This document shows positions 49,136 to 54,693 of a stretch of DNA of 64,000 nucleotides, piece by piece (positions within the stretch are counted from its first letter, which is position 1; every line of letters begins with the position of its first letter). Both the position numbers and the translations under genes were made by a program. The stretch is from Mucilaginibacter frigoritolerans (lineage in GTDB: Bacteria; Bacteroidota; Bacteroidia; Sphingobacteriales; Sphingobacteriaceae): positions 1 through 64,000 of the forward strand of contig NZ_VLLI01000004.1 of assembly GCF_007830615.1 (NCBI RefSeq), in the 5' to 3' direction. The notes under the pieces were generated by a model. The model worked only from the letters and a program-made list of their open reading frames with translations. It was not told the DNA's origin and made no database searches.

Positions 49136-49252
49136 CTGTTAGTTTTATATTATTGTGATAATAATATCCAAAAATAAAAAAATAACGCATTAAGCGATAT
49201 GTTTTAGTTGGAGGGGATGTGAATAGTGTAGTAAATTGTTCACTTACGCTAA

Positions 49253-49283
49253 TTGGTTTTTTATAAAAATAAAACCTACCTTG
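49253..49283 (+). promoter_or_regulatory. Promoter of the fluoride riboswitch / CLC-F transcript
   Basis: TTG at 49253-49255 and TACCTTG at 49277-49283 are 21 bases apart, which fits the Bacteroidota layout (TTTG, 19-21 bases, TAnnTTTG) with small deviations. Transcription would begin around 49287-49290, exactly at the 5' edge of the aptamer. Confidence 0.5.
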
Positions 49284-49285
49284 CA

Positions 49286-49338
49286 GCAGGAAATGGTGTC
49301 TTCCTTTTAAAAACCGCGTTTGCTGATGGCGCCTGCAA
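49286..49338 (+). promoter_or_regulatory. Fluoride riboswitch (crcB motif)
   Basis: The aptamer shows the crcB-motif consensus in order. GGAA (49289-49292) pairs with TTCC (49301-49304) around ATGGTGTC. The loop part GGTGTC (49295-49300) can pair with GGCGCC (49328-49333) as the pseudoknot, with two G-U pairs. The conserved AAACCGC (49311-49317) and GCTGATGG (49322-49329) are both present. It is followed 7 bases on by a terminator hairpin and then by a CLC-F type channel gene, the classic target. Fluoride binding should prevent termination and switch the channel gene on. Confidence 0.85.
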
Positions 49339-49344
49339 TACCCC

Positions 49345-49378
49345 TCCACAGGAATAAATCTGTTGGACAATTTTTTTT
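49345..49378 (+). terminator. Riboswitch-controlled terminator
   Basis: TCCACAG (49345-49351) pairs with CTGTTGGA (49360-49367) with one bulged base, and eight T follow after ACAA (49371-49378). It lies between the fluoride aptamer and the channel gene and is the likely expression platform. Confidence 0.75.
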
Positions 49379-49494
49379 GCAGGTGAAATTTTTAAACAAT
49401 TATTCAAACAAGACACTATTTTTACCGGGAAACTCTATCCCGCTACCCCATGTTTTCAACAGCCTTTCTTATAACCTTCAAATAATAATCTGCA

Positions 49495-50904
49495 ATGACT
49501 GAAAATAATTCCTTTTCATTTAAAGAGCATATTGCCATTTTTAAACAGCTAGTACGGTGGACAATATTAGTATTCCCTGTTGCCATAGCTATTGGCAGTA
49601 TGGTAGCCTTTTTTCTATGGCTACTTAGTACGGCCATTCATTTCAGGTTCAGTCATCCATGGCTGTTGTTTTTGTTGCCATTAGCGGGTTTATTAATTCA
49701 TTTTATTTATCAATCGGTAGGTAAATCATCCGAAAAAGGCAATAACCTCATCACCGAACAAATTCATGAGGCGGGGGGCGGTATACCTAAAAGGATGGCG
49801 CCCATTATTTTAATTACTACCGTTATTACCCATTTATTCGGTGGTTCTGCCGGGCGCGAGGGTACGGCAGTGCAGATTGGCGGCAGCATAGCCGCAATGT
49901 TTGGCAGATGGTTTAAACTAAAAGGCGTAGACATTCGCATCATACTAATAGCTGGGGTTGCAGCCGGTTTCGGGGCTGTTTTCGGTACGCCGGTCACCGG
50001 AGCCGTATTTGCTATGGAAGTACTAACCATTGGCAAGATTCAATACCACGCGCTCATCCCGGCCTTAATTGCAGCCGTAATTGGCGATTTAACGGTTAAA
50101 GCCTGGCACGTAACCCATGTACAATACCATATTGATCCAATAGCACCGGGTGTTAATTTATTCACTGGTTTTTTTCATTTCGATGTTTTGTTGTTGGGTA
50201 AGGTAATTATCTCATCAGCTGCATTTGGCTTGGCCAGTTTTTTATTCGCCCGTATGGTGCACGAAATAAAAGCTGTTTGCATTAAACTGTTTAAGTATAA
50301 ATGGATGATCCCTGTTTTTGGCGGCTTAGTGATTATTGGCATTACCCTGCTTATTGGCAAGCCCGATTATTTAAGCTTAGGGGTTGATGCAGAGCATCCG
50401 GGAGCCGTAACCATTCCATCTGCATTCAGTGCAGGAGGTGCTGATACCTGGAGCTGGCTATGGAAAACCATTTATACTACTATTACGCTGGGTACAGGGT
50501 TTAAAGGTGGGGAGGTAACACCCTTGTTTTATATTGGTGCTACATTGGGTAACACACTATCGCAATTATTAAATGCGCCGGTAAGTCTTTTTGCGGCACT
50601 GGGTTTCATTGCCGTATTCTCGGGTGCTACCAACACGCCATTAGCCTGTACCTTTATGGGGGTTGAACTTTTTGGTGGCGAACATGTGCTGCTATTTGCC
50701 GTGGCTTGTTTTACAGCTTATATTTTTAGCGGGCATTCGGGCATTTATAGTGCACAGCGTATCGGTGTTCCTAAAGTGCCGGATGATGGTTATATGGATG
50801 AATCCTCGCTGGCAGAAGCTATGAAGCGGAGGGGATACCTGCACCAAAAGCTTCGCAGATACCGTCTTTCATTTAAAAAAAGTGATGGGTTGGGGAATAG
50901 TTAA
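49495..50904 (+). CDS. CLC-type fluoride channel/antiporter (CLC-F, EriC-F)
   Basis: 469 residues, about 16-18 membrane segments. The gating region GGSAGREGTAVQ (116-127) carries Glu122; the GREGT form, together with RMAPIILITTVITHLFGG before it, matches the fluoride-specific CLC-F branch and not GREGP of chloride transporters. Later motifs FGTPVTGAVFAMEV and GTGFKGGEVTPLFYIGA complete the two-fold repeat. It expels F- in exchange for H+. A fluoride riboswitch and terminator sit directly upstream, which independently supports the substrate. The start is ATG 49495. It ends 31 bases from the convergent TetR gene. Confidence 0.92.
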   Translation: MTENNSFSFKEHIAIFKQLVRWTILVFPVAIAIGSMVAFFLWLLSTAIHFRFSHPWLLFLLPLAGLLIHFIYQSVGKSSEKGNNLITEQIHEAGGGIPKRMAPIILITTVITHLFGGSAGREGTAVQIGGSIAAMFGRWFKLKGVDIRIILIAGVAAGFGAVFGTPVTGAVFAMEVLTIGKIQYHALIPALIAAVIGDLTVKAWHVTHVQYHIDPIAPGVNLFTGFFHFDVLLLGKVIISSAAFGLASFLFARMVHEIKAVCIKLFKYKWMIPVFGGLVIIGITLLIGKPDYLSLGVDAEHPGAVTIPSAFSAGGADTWSWLWKTIYTTITLGTGFKGGEVTPLFYIGATLGNTLSQLLNAPVSLFAALGFIAVFSGATNTPLACTFMGVELFGGEHVLLFAVACFTAYIFSGHSGIYSAQRIGVPKVPDDGYMDESSLAEAMKRRGYLHQKLRRYRLSFKKSDGLGNS

Positions 50905-50935: not shown

Positions 50936-51544
50936 TCAAATATTCATAATCTGTTTCATCCATATGGGGATTAATTTTTTGCGCTCCTGCATCAGCTGAT
51001 AGAACTCATCGCTGTTAAAATTTCCGGTTTGGAGCAACTGTGGCCGGGTTAAAAATGGAAACATAATCATGCCCGAAATATTCCAGACCAGGTTTATGGG
51101 GTGGAAATTGATTTTACCATCTGTTTCCAAAGCCCGGAGTTGTTTGGCAAAATGTGAATTGACCAATAATTTTATGTTACTGATTACAGGTAATTTGGTT
51201 GAGCCGGCCATCACTTCGTTCACCATAAAAAACGGAAAGTCTGGATTTTCCAACACCTGGTCAATATAGTAGCCAACACAAACTTCTATTTTTTCAAACA
51301 GGGAGGTGTTTTCATCATTTAATACAGGCTCTACTTTGTTAAATAGCTTCTGAATGCTTTCTTCCATAATAAAGGCAAACAGTTTTTCTTTACTGCGGAA
51401 ATAATAGTTAATGGAAGCCACATTAATATCAGCCTCGGTAGCAATATCCCGAATGGTAGTAGCCAGAAATCCCTTTTTTGTAAAGATCATTCTGGCTGCA
51501 TCCTTTATTCTTTCTTCTGTTGAAACGTCTGTTGCTTCTGTCAT
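50936..51544 (-). CDS. TetR family transcriptional regulator
   Basis: 202 residues from ATG 51544; the ATG at 51583 would add 13 hydrophobic residues before the DNA-binding domain and is less likely. The helix-turn-helix is RIKDAARMIFTKKGF, then TIRDIATEADINVASINYYF, the classic TetR pattern. The C-terminal ligand/dimer domain is of the TetR_C type. It follows the DHA2 efflux gene by 55 bases on the same strand, so it is probably cotranscribed and represses the pair. Two copies of AATCAATCGATT upstream of the efflux gene are likely operators. Confidence 0.92.
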   Translation of the reverse strand: MTEATDVSTEERIKDAARMIFTKKGFLATTIRDIATEADINVASINYYFRSKEKLFAFIMEESIQKLFNKVEPVLNDENTSLFEKIEVCVGYYIDQVLENPDFPFFMVNEVMAGSTKLPVISNIKLLVNSHFAKQLRALETDGKINFHPINLVWNISGMIMFPFLTRPQLLQTGNFNSDEFYQLMQERKKLIPIWMKQIMNI

Positions 51545-51599
51545 AATTATTTCAAATTTAATTATTGCAGAACAAATAATCATTTAAATAAATTTGAGG

Positions 51600-53147
51600 C
51601 TAGTGAGCATCTGCAATGGCTTTCTGGCCTTTTCTGAATGGAGCCAGGTAAAGCAGTGGAATGCTGATGAGCATAACTATACCAACAACCCAATAAGCAT
51701 CGTTATAGCTCAGTAATGCACTTTGCTGGTTAACAACACCATCAATAGCGCGGTAAGCTAAATTGGTAGCATCCAGAAAGGATTTGCCTTTAGCCATAAA
51801 AGCATGTACATAGCCATTAAATCTTTCAGTATAATAAGGATTATAAATATTAACATAACTTAAAAGGTTATTACGGTGTGTAGCTGAGCGGACGTGTATT
51901 AGTGTAGTTAGGCCTGCAATACCAAATGACCCGCCTAGTTGGCGCATCATATTGTTGAGGCCGGTACCCTGGCCAATTTCATGTCCCTTTAAGCCACCTA
52001 TGGCCAAAGTGGTAAGTGGTACAAATAGCAAGGCTAAACCAATACCCCTTATGGCTAAGGGCCAGAAAAAGTCGCCGGTGCCGGTAGCTAGTGTTGAATG
52101 GCTGAGCATAGAGGAGAAAATAAAAAATAAAATCATACCCGCAGTTGCCATAAATTGAGCAGGTACACCTTTATTGAGCATAATACCGATAAAAGGCATC
52201 GTGAGTACAGTAAACATCCCACCAGGAAATAAAATTTCGCCGGTTTGCTGTGCCGTAAAACCCAGTAAGCTCTGGCAAAATACCGGGAATACAAAAGTCG
52301 ATCCATACAAACCTACCCCCAAAACAAAGGAGGTAAACATCCCGGCGGAAAAGCTCCTGTTCCGCATAATTTTAAAATTTACTATTGGATGGTCGGTGCT
52401 CAACTCACGCCAGATAAAAAGCAACAGGCCCAATACCGCAGTAACTGTTAGTACAATAATATAGTTGGTTGAAAACCAGTCTTCATCTTCACCTTTTTCC
52501 AATATAGTTTGCAGGCTGCCTACAGCTATGGCTAATAAAGCAATTCCCCACCAGTCAATCGGCTTATCCCTGCCGGTTCTGGGTGTTGTCCTCACAAATA
52601 GGTAAGTGAACGTTGCAGCCAAACATCCAACGGGGATATTTACATAAAAGATCCAGCGCCAGGCAGCATGATCCGTAATATAGCCACCAATAGTTGGACC
52701 GATGGTAGGGCCTACAACCGCACCAAGACCAAACAGAGCTGTAGCTGTACCAACCTGATCGGCCGGCCAGGTATCTAACAAAATAGCCTGGGCTGTTGAA
52801 AGTAAACCACCGCCCGCAAAGCCCTGCAATACACGAAAGCCGATAAGTTCTGTAAGGCTATGTGCATTTCCGCATAGAAAAGAAGCAATGGTAAATAAAA
52901 TGATGGAAGCTAAAAAATAGCTCTTTCGTCCAAAAAAACTACCCAGCCAGCCCGACATGGGCAAAATAATAACGTTAGCCACGCTGTAGCCGGTAACTAC
53001 CCAGGCCGCATCGGTTAGTGTGGCGCCAAGGTTTCCCTGTATTTGAGGGATAGAGACGTTTACAATAGTGGTATCAATTAATTCCAGCAGCGAAGCTGTA
53101 ATTACAGTAATGGTAATAATCCATTTTCTAAATCCGGTTTCAGCCAT
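51600..53147 (-). CDS. DHA2 family multidrug efflux MFS transporter (EmrB/QacA type)
   Basis: 515 residues with 14 membrane segments, the DHA2 topology. The N-terminal part has the family motif LDTTIVNVSIPQIQGNLG and motif A-like GSFFGRKSYFLAS; motif C GAVVGPTIGPTIGGYI is present near residues 140-155 and is typical of drug/proton antiporters. It would export drugs or other hydrophobic compounds using the proton gradient. No membrane-fusion or TolC gene is adjacent, so an EmrA-like partner must lie elsewhere, if used. The TetR gene follows downstream. Two operator-like repeats lie 50-91 bases upstream of the ATG. Confidence 0.93.
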   Translation of the reverse strand: MAETGFRKWIITITVITASLLELIDTTIVNVSIPQIQGNLGATLTDAAWVVTGYSVANVIILPMSGWLGSFFGRKSYFLASIILFTIASFLCGNAHSLTELIGFRVLQGFAGGGLLSTAQAILLDTWPADQVGTATALFGLGAVVGPTIGPTIGGYITDHAAWRWIFYVNIPVGCLAATFTYLFVRTTPRTGRDKPIDWWGIALLAIAVGSLQTILEKGEDEDWFSTNYIIVLTVTAVLGLLLFIWRELSTDHPIVNFKIMRNRSFSAGMFTSFVLGVGLYGSTFVFPVFCQSLLGFTAQQTGEILFPGGMFTVLTMPFIGIMLNKGVPAQFMATAGMILFFIFSSMLSHSTLATGTGDFFWPLAIRGIGLALLFVPLTTLAIGGLKGHEIGQGTGLNNMMRQLGGSFGIAGLTTLIHVRSATHRNNLLSYVNIYNPYYTERFNGYVHAFMAKGKSFLDATNLAYRAIDGVVNQQSALLSYNDAYWVVGIVMLISIPLLYLAPFRKGQKAIADAH

Positions 53148-53196
53148 TTTAATATGTATTTCGGTTGATATTCATTTTAAAAACAAAAACAAAATT

Positions 53197-53238
53197 AATC
53201 AATCGATTAATTAAAACAACTGTTTGAATCAATCGATT
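53197..53238. promoter_or_regulatory. Paired TetR operator candidates
   Basis: The 12-mer AATCAATCGATT occurs twice, at 53197-53208 and 53227-53238, exactly 30 bases apart. Each contains the palindrome AATCGATT, and the right copy extends to CAATCGATTG. The spacing is near three DNA turns, so two dimers could sit on the same face. The sites lie in front of the efflux gene that leads the tetR operon, and also upstream of the divergent antiporter gene. Confidence 0.55.
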
Positions 53239-53445
53239 GGACTTATGGCATTTTTATGACGAAGCATAACGGGGAGTAACCTTTCAGCAAATGGAGCAAG
53301 AGTGTTTTTTATGAATATTAAGATTAATGATAGTTTCTATTTACTTTGCTTATTCAAGTATCTGGTAATAAATGGATGGCAAAATGAGAAGAGGGATGGA
53401 CAGACGAACGAACTTTATATCCGGCTTTATAAAAAAATAAACAAT

Positions 53446-54693
53446 ATGGGAAACTATAGCATTGTATTAATTATACTGGCCATTATGATCAGTCTTTCGG
53501 CTCTTGCTGAAAGGATAAAGTTACCCTACCCGGTATTATTGGTACTGGGAGGTATAGCTATAGGTTTTTTTCCGTGGTTGCCCAATATATCCCTAGATCC
53601 GGAAATTATCTTCCTGATTTTTTTACCCCCATTGCTATTTGAGGCCGCATTTAACATATCCTTTGGCGAATTCAAAACTAATATTAACACCATTGGCACG
53701 TTGGCCATATCCCTGGTGTTTTTAACAACCGTGGGTATAGCAGTTGCTGCACATTACATGATTCCGGGCATGACTTGGCCGCTTTCCTTTGTTTTGGGTG
53801 CTATATTATCAGCGACTGATAGCGTAGCCGCAACCAGCATTACCAAAGGACTTAACCTTCAGCATAAAACCATTACCATACTGGAGGGCGAAAGCCTGGT
53901 GAACGATGCCTCGGCATTAGTGGCTTACCGGTTTGCTGTGGCAGCAGTAACAGGTGTTACATTTGTATTATGGAAAGCTTCCATCCAATTTGTAGGGCTG
54001 ATGGCGGGTGGGTTATTGGTTGGCTATGTAATGGCTAAAATATTAACCTTTGTTTTGGATAGGGTAAAACAAAATAACTTGGTTATTATCAGTTTTATGC
54101 TTTTGCAGCCTTTCATTACTTATGTGGTTGCCGAAGATCTGCATGTATCAGGGGTTATAGCCGTGGTTACTCTGGGTTTAATAATGGCACGGGTTAAAAA
54201 TAAAGAGGTACCGGTTAGTTTACGGCAACAGTCCAAATCAATATGGGAAATCATTATTTTTTTACTGAACGGGTTGATTTTTATCCTAATCGGTTTACAA
54301 CTGCCTTTTGTGGTTAAAAGCATCCATAGTAATTATGTACTGCTGCAATATGTTGGCTATGCATTTATCATAACGATAACGGCTTTATTGCTAAGAATGG
54401 CTCGTGTATTTCTGCAAAAAATAAATCTTCAGCGCGCCTTTAAAAAAGGGCGTAAAAAAGTAACCGAGGATGCCCTGCTCGATTTTAAAAACAGTCTGAT
54501 CATCAGTTGGTCGGGCATGCGGGGAATAGTGTCCTTAGCCATTGCCATAGGGTTGCCGATTACGTTAAGTGATGGTACACCATTTCCTGAGCGTTCTGCC
54601 ATTATTTTCATTTCAGTGATAGTGGTTCTTTTTACATTGATTGGACAGGGGCTTACTTTGCCCTGGCTGGTAAAGCGATTGAAAATTAAATAA
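53446..54693 (+). CDS. CPA1 family Na+/H+ antiporter
   Basis: 415 residues from ATG 53446 (MGNYSIVLIILAIMISL); the frame is open further up to TTG/ATG codons near 53302 but that part is polar and unlike the family. About 12 membrane helices. CPA1 hallmarks are LPPLLFEAAFNI (about residues 60-71), ATDSVAATSI with the transport Asp, and LEGESLVNDASALV; SWSGMRGIVSLA near the end is also typical. It swaps sodium (or potassium) for protons across the inner membrane. No C-terminal regulatory domain follows. It reads away from the efflux operon. Confidence 0.92.
   Translation: MGNYSIVLIILAIMISLSALAERIKLPYPVLLVLGGIAIGFFPWLPNISLDPEIIFLIFLPPLLFEAAFNISFGEFKTNINTIGTLAISLVFLTTVGIAVAAHYMIPGMTWPLSFVLGAILSATDSVAATSITKGLNLQHKTITILEGESLVNDASALVAYRFAVAAVTGVTFVLWKASIQFVGLMAGGLLVGYVMAKILTFVLDRVKQNNLVIISFMLLQPFITYVVAEDLHVSGVIAVVTLGLIMARVKNKEVPVSLRQQSKSIWEIIIFLLNGLIFILIGLQLPFVVKSIHSNYVLLQYVGYAFIITITALLLRMARVFLQKINLQRAFKKGRKKVTEDALLDFKNSLIISWSGMRGIVSLAIAIGLPITLSDGTPFPERSAIIFISVIVVLFTLIGQGLTLPWLVKRLKIK

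Follow-up and report, generated by a model that had tools for sequence, protein, structure and literature searches.

Our analysis points to a fluoride riboswitch in Mucilaginibacter frigoritolerans that probably works at the level of translation, as an ON switch: fluoride would uncover the GUG at which a short leader ORF begins, and the CLC-F gene behind it would be translated by coupling. The identities of the aptamer and of the protein, a competing stem placed at the start codons of related loci and a stop/start junction recurring among them were established by computation; beyond these, we infer that the RNA binds fluoride, that the start codon is released, and that ribosomes use the GUG and reinitiate. 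Positions refer to the window, that is, the whole stretch of 64,000 nucleotides analyzed, and the features discussed are the following.

49277..49283, plus strand: predicted promoter box TACCTTG (letters; near-fixed distance to GGAAATG in relatives)
49280..49342, plus strand: fluoride riboswitch aptamer RF01734 (covariance model)
49295..49300, plus strand: pseudoknot strand 1, GGTGTC (read in the sequence)
49328..49333, plus strand: pseudoknot strand 2, GGCGCC (read in the sequence)
49330..49338, plus strand: 5' arm of the competing stem, CGCCTGCAA (RNA CGCCUGCAA) (MFE fold; conserved)
49345..49367, plus strand: inner hairpin, the terminator stem of the earlier note (MFE fold, pairing probabilities, relatives)
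49371..49378, plus strand: T8 run (letters; a run of eight in the window only, among 65 loci)
49377..49385, plus strand: 3' arm of the competing stem, TTGCAGGTG (RNA UUGCAGGUG), holding the GTG start (MFE fold; conserved)
49383..49502, plus strand: 39-codon leader ORF, GTG to TGA (letters, stop-position statistics; no Pfam match)
49495..50904, plus strand: CLC-F fluoride/proton antiporter gene, 469 aa, by homology (Pfam, structure scores, tree)

The 64-kb window was compared with the Rfam covariance models, the earlier note having proposed the fluoride model for 49250-49400, and RF01734 matched over its full length (model positions 1-64 of 64) with 45.7 bits, above the gathering score of 34, and an E value of 1.8e-9; the only other match at gathering level was a tRNA gene at 773-846 on the minus strand (62.2 bits). 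The parts of the crcB motif described in that note were all found in order, namely the P1 stem (GGAA 49289-49292 with TTCC 49301-49304), a pseudoknot in which the P1 loop and the 3' strand form six pairs, two of them G-U, and the AAACCGC and GCTGATGG segments. The element is thus a fluoride riboswitch upstream of a fluoride-exporter gene, resembling RF01734 in its full-length match, its conserved aptamer parts and its genomic place, and its RNA would be expected to bind fluoride.

A promoter had also been proposed at the edge of the aptamer. The letters are as described (TTG 49253-49255, then 21 bases, then TACCTTG 49277-49283, which we take to be a promoter element of the Bacteroidota -7 type), and a TA..TT box such as TACCTTGC, TATATTGC, TATATTAGC or TATCTTTGC was counted by hand in 23 of 25 close leaders, window included, at a nearly constant distance from the downstream GGAAATG, the exceptions being L148 and L046; the upstream TTG, however, was not conserved among those 25. 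The box is the part of the proposal that holds, and it is predicted to set the start of the RNA close to the edge of the aptamer. An additional closing stem (TTGCAG 49281-49286 with CTGCAA 49334-49339) was considered and dropped, its first half being probably absent from the RNA because it overlaps the conserved promoter box.

The protein belongs to the CLC family (Voltage_CLC, 228.8 bits by Pfam), and when compared with solved structures it scored 206.5 bits against the CLC-F antiporter 6d0j and 24.8 bits against the best chloride CLCs. Its gate motif reads GREGT, as the earlier note had seen, compared with GREGV in 6d0j and GREGP in ClcA (3ejz). In a tree of 29 rows, 6d0j and 18 GREGT rows, the window among them, formed one side with support 100/99, ClcA and nine further rows falling on the other; a long-branch warning was issued for each of the two PDB rows, and 4 of the 22 loci sampled (L329, L331, L337, L340) yielded no row by the filter. 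The protein did not group with chloride CLCs, and it is, by homology only, a CLC-F fluoride/proton antiporter, so the name "channel" used earlier has to give way. It shares with 6d0j the GREG gate region as well as the side of the tree, and differs from it in carrying T where 6d0j carries V; its transport of fluoride is assigned by that homology. Among named genomes the nearest match was from Mucilaginibacter sp. X4EP1 (90%), a soil isolate represented among our loci by L170 and L220, most of the next ones belonging to Mucilaginibacter or Pedobacter.

RF01734 matched only once in the 5.66 Mb genome and no match to CrcB was obtained there, so that a second fluoride riboswitch and a CrcB exporter were both discarded. 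One further CLC gene is present (L072:1000-2781, minus strand, G000:C12), which has GLEAP where ClcA has GREGP and groups in the tree with ClcA; since the RF01734 match is single, none lies beside this gene.

We also found an element absent from the earlier note, as is the ORF at 49383-49502: a competing stem of 9 bp that encloses the inner hairpin and whose 3' arm ends with GTG 49383-49385. The stem and the aptamer pseudoknot share the bases CGCC 49330-49333. Its predicted pairing probability fell from 0.90-1.00 in the free RNA to 0-0.13 when the pseudoknot strands were blocked, four of the nine pairs being barred by the folding constraint itself.

To follow this element in relatives we collected 193 loci and analyzed 190, after dropping L193 and L195, whose core was not found by the pattern, and L071, a weak match whose core was not found either. 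At an E value of at most 0.001, RF01734 had a match in 132 of the 149 genus genomes, and in 65 of 151 and 55 of 395 genomes sampled from the family and the phylum, respectively. In 109 of the 190 loci CLC-F starts between -4 and +17 nt from where the 3' arm ends; in 12 a different ORF, 80 aa or longer, starts in the same span and in 40 a short ORF does, some of the short ones being cut by contig ends (e.g. L074, L096). The remaining loci comprise 16 with no stem by the rule, 8 set aside and 5 with neither ATG nor GTG in the span. A bare ATG or GTG is expected there by chance 44% of the time, and for that reason it is the 109 CLC-F starts and the shuffles that carry the weight.

Compared with shuffles, the aptamer 3' strand was complementary to the leader at p<=0.05 in 107 of 157 loci and in 48 of 67 leader clusters, with p 0.007 for the window; in the other 33 of the 190 loci no CLC-F was located within range, and these were left out of the comparison. 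With the 16 stemless loci and the 8 set aside again excluded, over 87 distinct arm pairs we counted 79 changes on both sides of a pair (shuffle mean 20.7, maximum 46; at most 32 in slid registers), and 78.6% of cells were paired compared with a shuffle maximum of 73.7. The pair-type count, 20, was not above that of the shuffles (mean 18.6, maximum 23). All these figures are to be read knowing that each stem was selected for being the best one, a choice that biases the controls in the stems' favor.

A start triplet lies within the stem itself in 65 loci, and it is GTG in 64 of them. In at least five of the 64 (L024, L038, L060, L097, L111) CLC-F begins at the following ATG. The sole ATG, that of L059, comes with a matching CGTC core, and three CGTC loci retain GTG through a U-G pair. 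From here an ORF whose peptide drifts leads towards CLC-F, fused in frame to it in some relatives and ending on its start codon in others. We see about an even chance that the start codon is itself a part of the riboswitch, the GGUG copying a pseudoknot strand, competing for CGCC and opening this drifting track; such a copy would explain why GUG has been retained in the group.

In the window, the leader ORF that begins at GTG ends at TGA 49500-49502, where it overlaps the CLC-F ATG 49495-49497 in the junction ATGACTGA. In 28 loci, counting the window (31 loci less L055, L094 and L182, whose best stem lies inside CLC-F), a leader ORF of 15-77 codons begins at the start in the stem, and 27 of the 28 stop between -20 and +30 nt from the first CLC-F ATG, when 2.9 would be expected from shuffled leaders; the same is true of 17 of 18 clusters at 70% identity. 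According to a hand count, the other two frames reach this zone in 0/28 and 5/28. The window's own ORF reaches the ATG with a shuffle p of 0.21, thus the case rests on the set of loci. When the window is compared with its 90% relative L170, the leaders differ by indels of 1, 5, 1, 1 and 4 bases, yet both keep 39 codons.

In 13 relatives the GTG is in frame with CLC-F. Two of them have an ATG before the conserved core, at codon 23 or 36; the other 11 have none, and in these the protein likely starts at the GTG, or else at a TTG or later GTG. A function for the leader peptide was considered and set aside, as it has no Pfam match and its pN/pS was 0.64 pooled over five pairs (0.29 to 1.95 in single pairs); selection on the peptide appears weak at best.

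A fortuitous leader ORF, with CLC-F starting alone at 49495 and the stem acting distantly or not at all, would be compatible with that p of 0.21, with a peptide that is neither conserved nor matched in Pfam and with a CLC-F AUG predicted to be 0.69 unpaired in the free state. It accounts poorly, however, for leader ORFs ending at the CLC-F start in nearly every locus and cluster, for the behavior of the other two frames and for the GTG as the likely CLC-F start in 11 of the 13 in-frame relatives, and we regard it as very improbable.

Two relatives in which no aptamer was detected were inspected by eye. L327, a near relative from genome G270, has kept GCAGGTG and a 24-codon GTG ORF ending in a TGA that overlaps the CLC-F ATG, which speaks for the translational reading; GCAGGTG was not found in the upstream stretch inspected in L326, which speaks against it.

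The translational reading that we favor would proceed as follows. Without fluoride, the aptamer 3' strand CGCCUGCAA would pair with UUGCAGGUG and bury the GUG of the leader ORF, the GGUG at the start site (49382-49385), a copy of the GGUG in the aptamer loop, being its rival for the same CGCC. Fluoride stabilizes the pseudoknot in the fluoride riboswitches that have been studied. With fluoride, the pseudoknot would hold CGCC 49330-49333, the stem would lose its base and, as CGCC is taken away from GGUG 49382-49385, the GUG should open and ribosomes could start there. They would read the leader ORF to its UGA and restart at the overlapping CLC-F AUG (AUGACUGA), and the antiporter made would expel fluoride. 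The start of the leader ORF is in this way predicted to be hidden by a stem that excludes the aptamer through the shared CGCC, and because the pseudoknot and the start-hiding stem share these bases, ON is the expected direction. The earlier note had also predicted that fluoride switches the gene on; the direction agrees, though not the route it gave, through blocked termination.

Opening of the start codon is the weakest step by computation. With the pseudoknot strands blocked, the predicted unpaired probability of the GUG rose from 0.00 to only 0.19, a change that we rejected as proof of switching, that of 49381-49388 went from 0.26 to 0.28 and that of the CLC-F AUG fell from 0.69 to 0.51; the pseudoknot, the ribosome and co-transcriptional folding are outside the model of the fold program. 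The weak opening of the GUG is due to GGUGAAA gaining another partner downstream, as GGTGAAA 49382-49388 can pair with a TTTTTACC-like stretch at about 49420-49428 once the competing stem is barred, a pairing that could limit how far the start codon opens. Over 156 loci the mean unpaired probability of the start region went from 0.34 to 0.41; it increased in 119 loci, with a gain of 0.2 or more in 19. The Mucilaginibacter lineage makes little use of Shine-Dalgarno sites.

As for termination, the hairpin and the eight T that the earlier note had taken for a terminator are both present, at 49345-49367 (arms TCCACAG 49345-49351 and CTGTTGGA 49360-49367) and 49371-49378; the role assigned to them was not confirmed. 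On that account the hairpin and T8 would end transcription in the absence of fluoride and fluoride would prevent it, much as terminators are common in other fluoride riboswitches according to the portions of PMC2864571 and PMC13273304 retrieved. The hairpin, however, lies outside the aptamer (49280-49342) without overlap and, being downstream of it, can form together with it: in a fold of 49285-49560 six of its seven pairs were at 0.80 or more and the remaining one at 0.48 whether or not the pseudoknot strands were blocked, so this is not a stem that excludes the aptamer. The stem is bulged, three bases (CAA) separate it from T8, and the consensus scanner did not list the hairpin with T8.

Among the 65 loci with a start triplet in the stem, seven combine an inner hairpin at -4 kcal/mol or lower with at least six U of 8; the window is one of them, and its near relatives L170, L185, L187, L160 and L161 make up five more. 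Four of these six have no U run longer than 3, and U-rich tails are kept in the six nearest leaders, i.e. those of the window and five near relatives. The hairpin of L170 is stronger (-11.3 kcal/mol), and six U follow AATAA there; in contrast, the near relatives L045, L151 and L162 retain the hairpin although none of their U runs exceeds 3, and T8 itself is found in 1 of the 65. By eye, the hairpin appears to be kept with altered letters in L170, L162, L045 and L160, and perhaps it serves to bring the two arms of the stem together.

As six of the seven U-rich loci are the window and near relatives, a weak terminator may act in this small group; as a terminator in general the hairpin is not convincing. 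Switching by blocked termination does not fit a hairpin that is no competitor of the aptamer, followed by a T run that is not conserved, when the element that does compete holds a conserved start codon and sits on the gene starts of relatives, and we consider this mechanism unlikely.

Slightly better placed, although still improbable, is a linked effect in which the leader ORF left untranslated without fluoride would allow Rho or a weak U-rich site to end the transcript, so that mRNA and protein fall together. A dual layout of this kind is reported, in the part of PMC12810186 available, for the pe20 Mbox of M. tuberculosis, and the near relatives do keep U-rich tails; on the other hand, nothing in the sequence comparison requires it.

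The platforms of fluoride riboswitches are described as sometimes terminators and sometimes presumably translational (retrieved part of PMC8814607). Many members of RF01734 carry a terminator overlapping the aptamer (excerpts of PMC2864571), unlike the window, where the platform is a stem over the start of a leader ORF. Terminator platforms have been characterized, and when transcription by E. coli RNA polymerase was assayed, 323 of 1901 fluoride riboswitches proved functional (sections of PMC13273304 retrieved), a figure that says little about how many of the others work. For one sizeable set, that of Mucilaginibacter with its kin, our loci suggest a stem over the start codon as the answer.

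The closest parallel is the ppe2 B12 riboswitch of M. tuberculosis, for which the retrieved text of PMC11260477 describes a translated uORF, termination-reinitiation and a gene that depends on translation of the leader. Both place a riboswitch on a leader whose stop overlaps the next start, as seen in ATGACTGA in the window and in the 27 of 28 loci above; the dependence shown for ppe2 would hold in the window by analogy. They differ in that ppe2 is an OFF switch for B12, whereas the window would be an ON switch for fluoride, and in that the start codon of the window is an arm of the stem competing with the aptamer, with leader and gene sharing a frame in 13 relatives. The pe20 Mbox likewise has, in the available part of PMC12810186, a translational platform over a small upstream ORF, as we propose here; it responds to Mg, a Rho-dependent part has been shown and its peptide is conserved, unlike the leader peptide of the window. 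The passages seen of PMC12121620 and PMC2258182 have no bearing on a start-hiding leader ORF, and among the matches listed, in open-licence literature only, none described this layout for fluoride. The aptamer, the antiporter family and riboswitch-controlled coupled leaders were thus known, and our results suggest that the fluoride case of a coupled leader ORF is new, adding fluoride to the design reported for B12 and Mg switches of mycobacteria. The relatives form a natural series, from direct CLC-F start to fused N-terminus to coupled ORF.

The phylum survey is descriptive only, as by a hand count 17 of its 43 loci had a core that the pattern failed to pick up. Among distant Bacteroidota, inspection by eye showed that the aptamer CUCCU can pair with AGGAGU just before the start codon in L196 and L200, and that the matching arm runs into a terminator-like U run in L313 and L304. 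In L163 (G266:C146) the aptamer precedes a CrcB-family gene (104.5 bits), and its contig has two aptamer matches about 1 kb apart.

In L030, L129 and L039 the start in the stem opens a membrane-like protein of 240-246 aa, the one in L030 matching PAP2 with 47 bits. The switch at L037:2243-4896 precedes an operon with an enolase gene just before CLC-F, both confirmed by Pfam, and by eye the same operon was also seen in L032, L039, L054 and L056. In the window, the region that follows CLC-F (50936-54693) holds minus-strand genes for a TetR regulator and an MFS transporter, followed by a plus-strand gene for a sodium/hydrogen exchanger.
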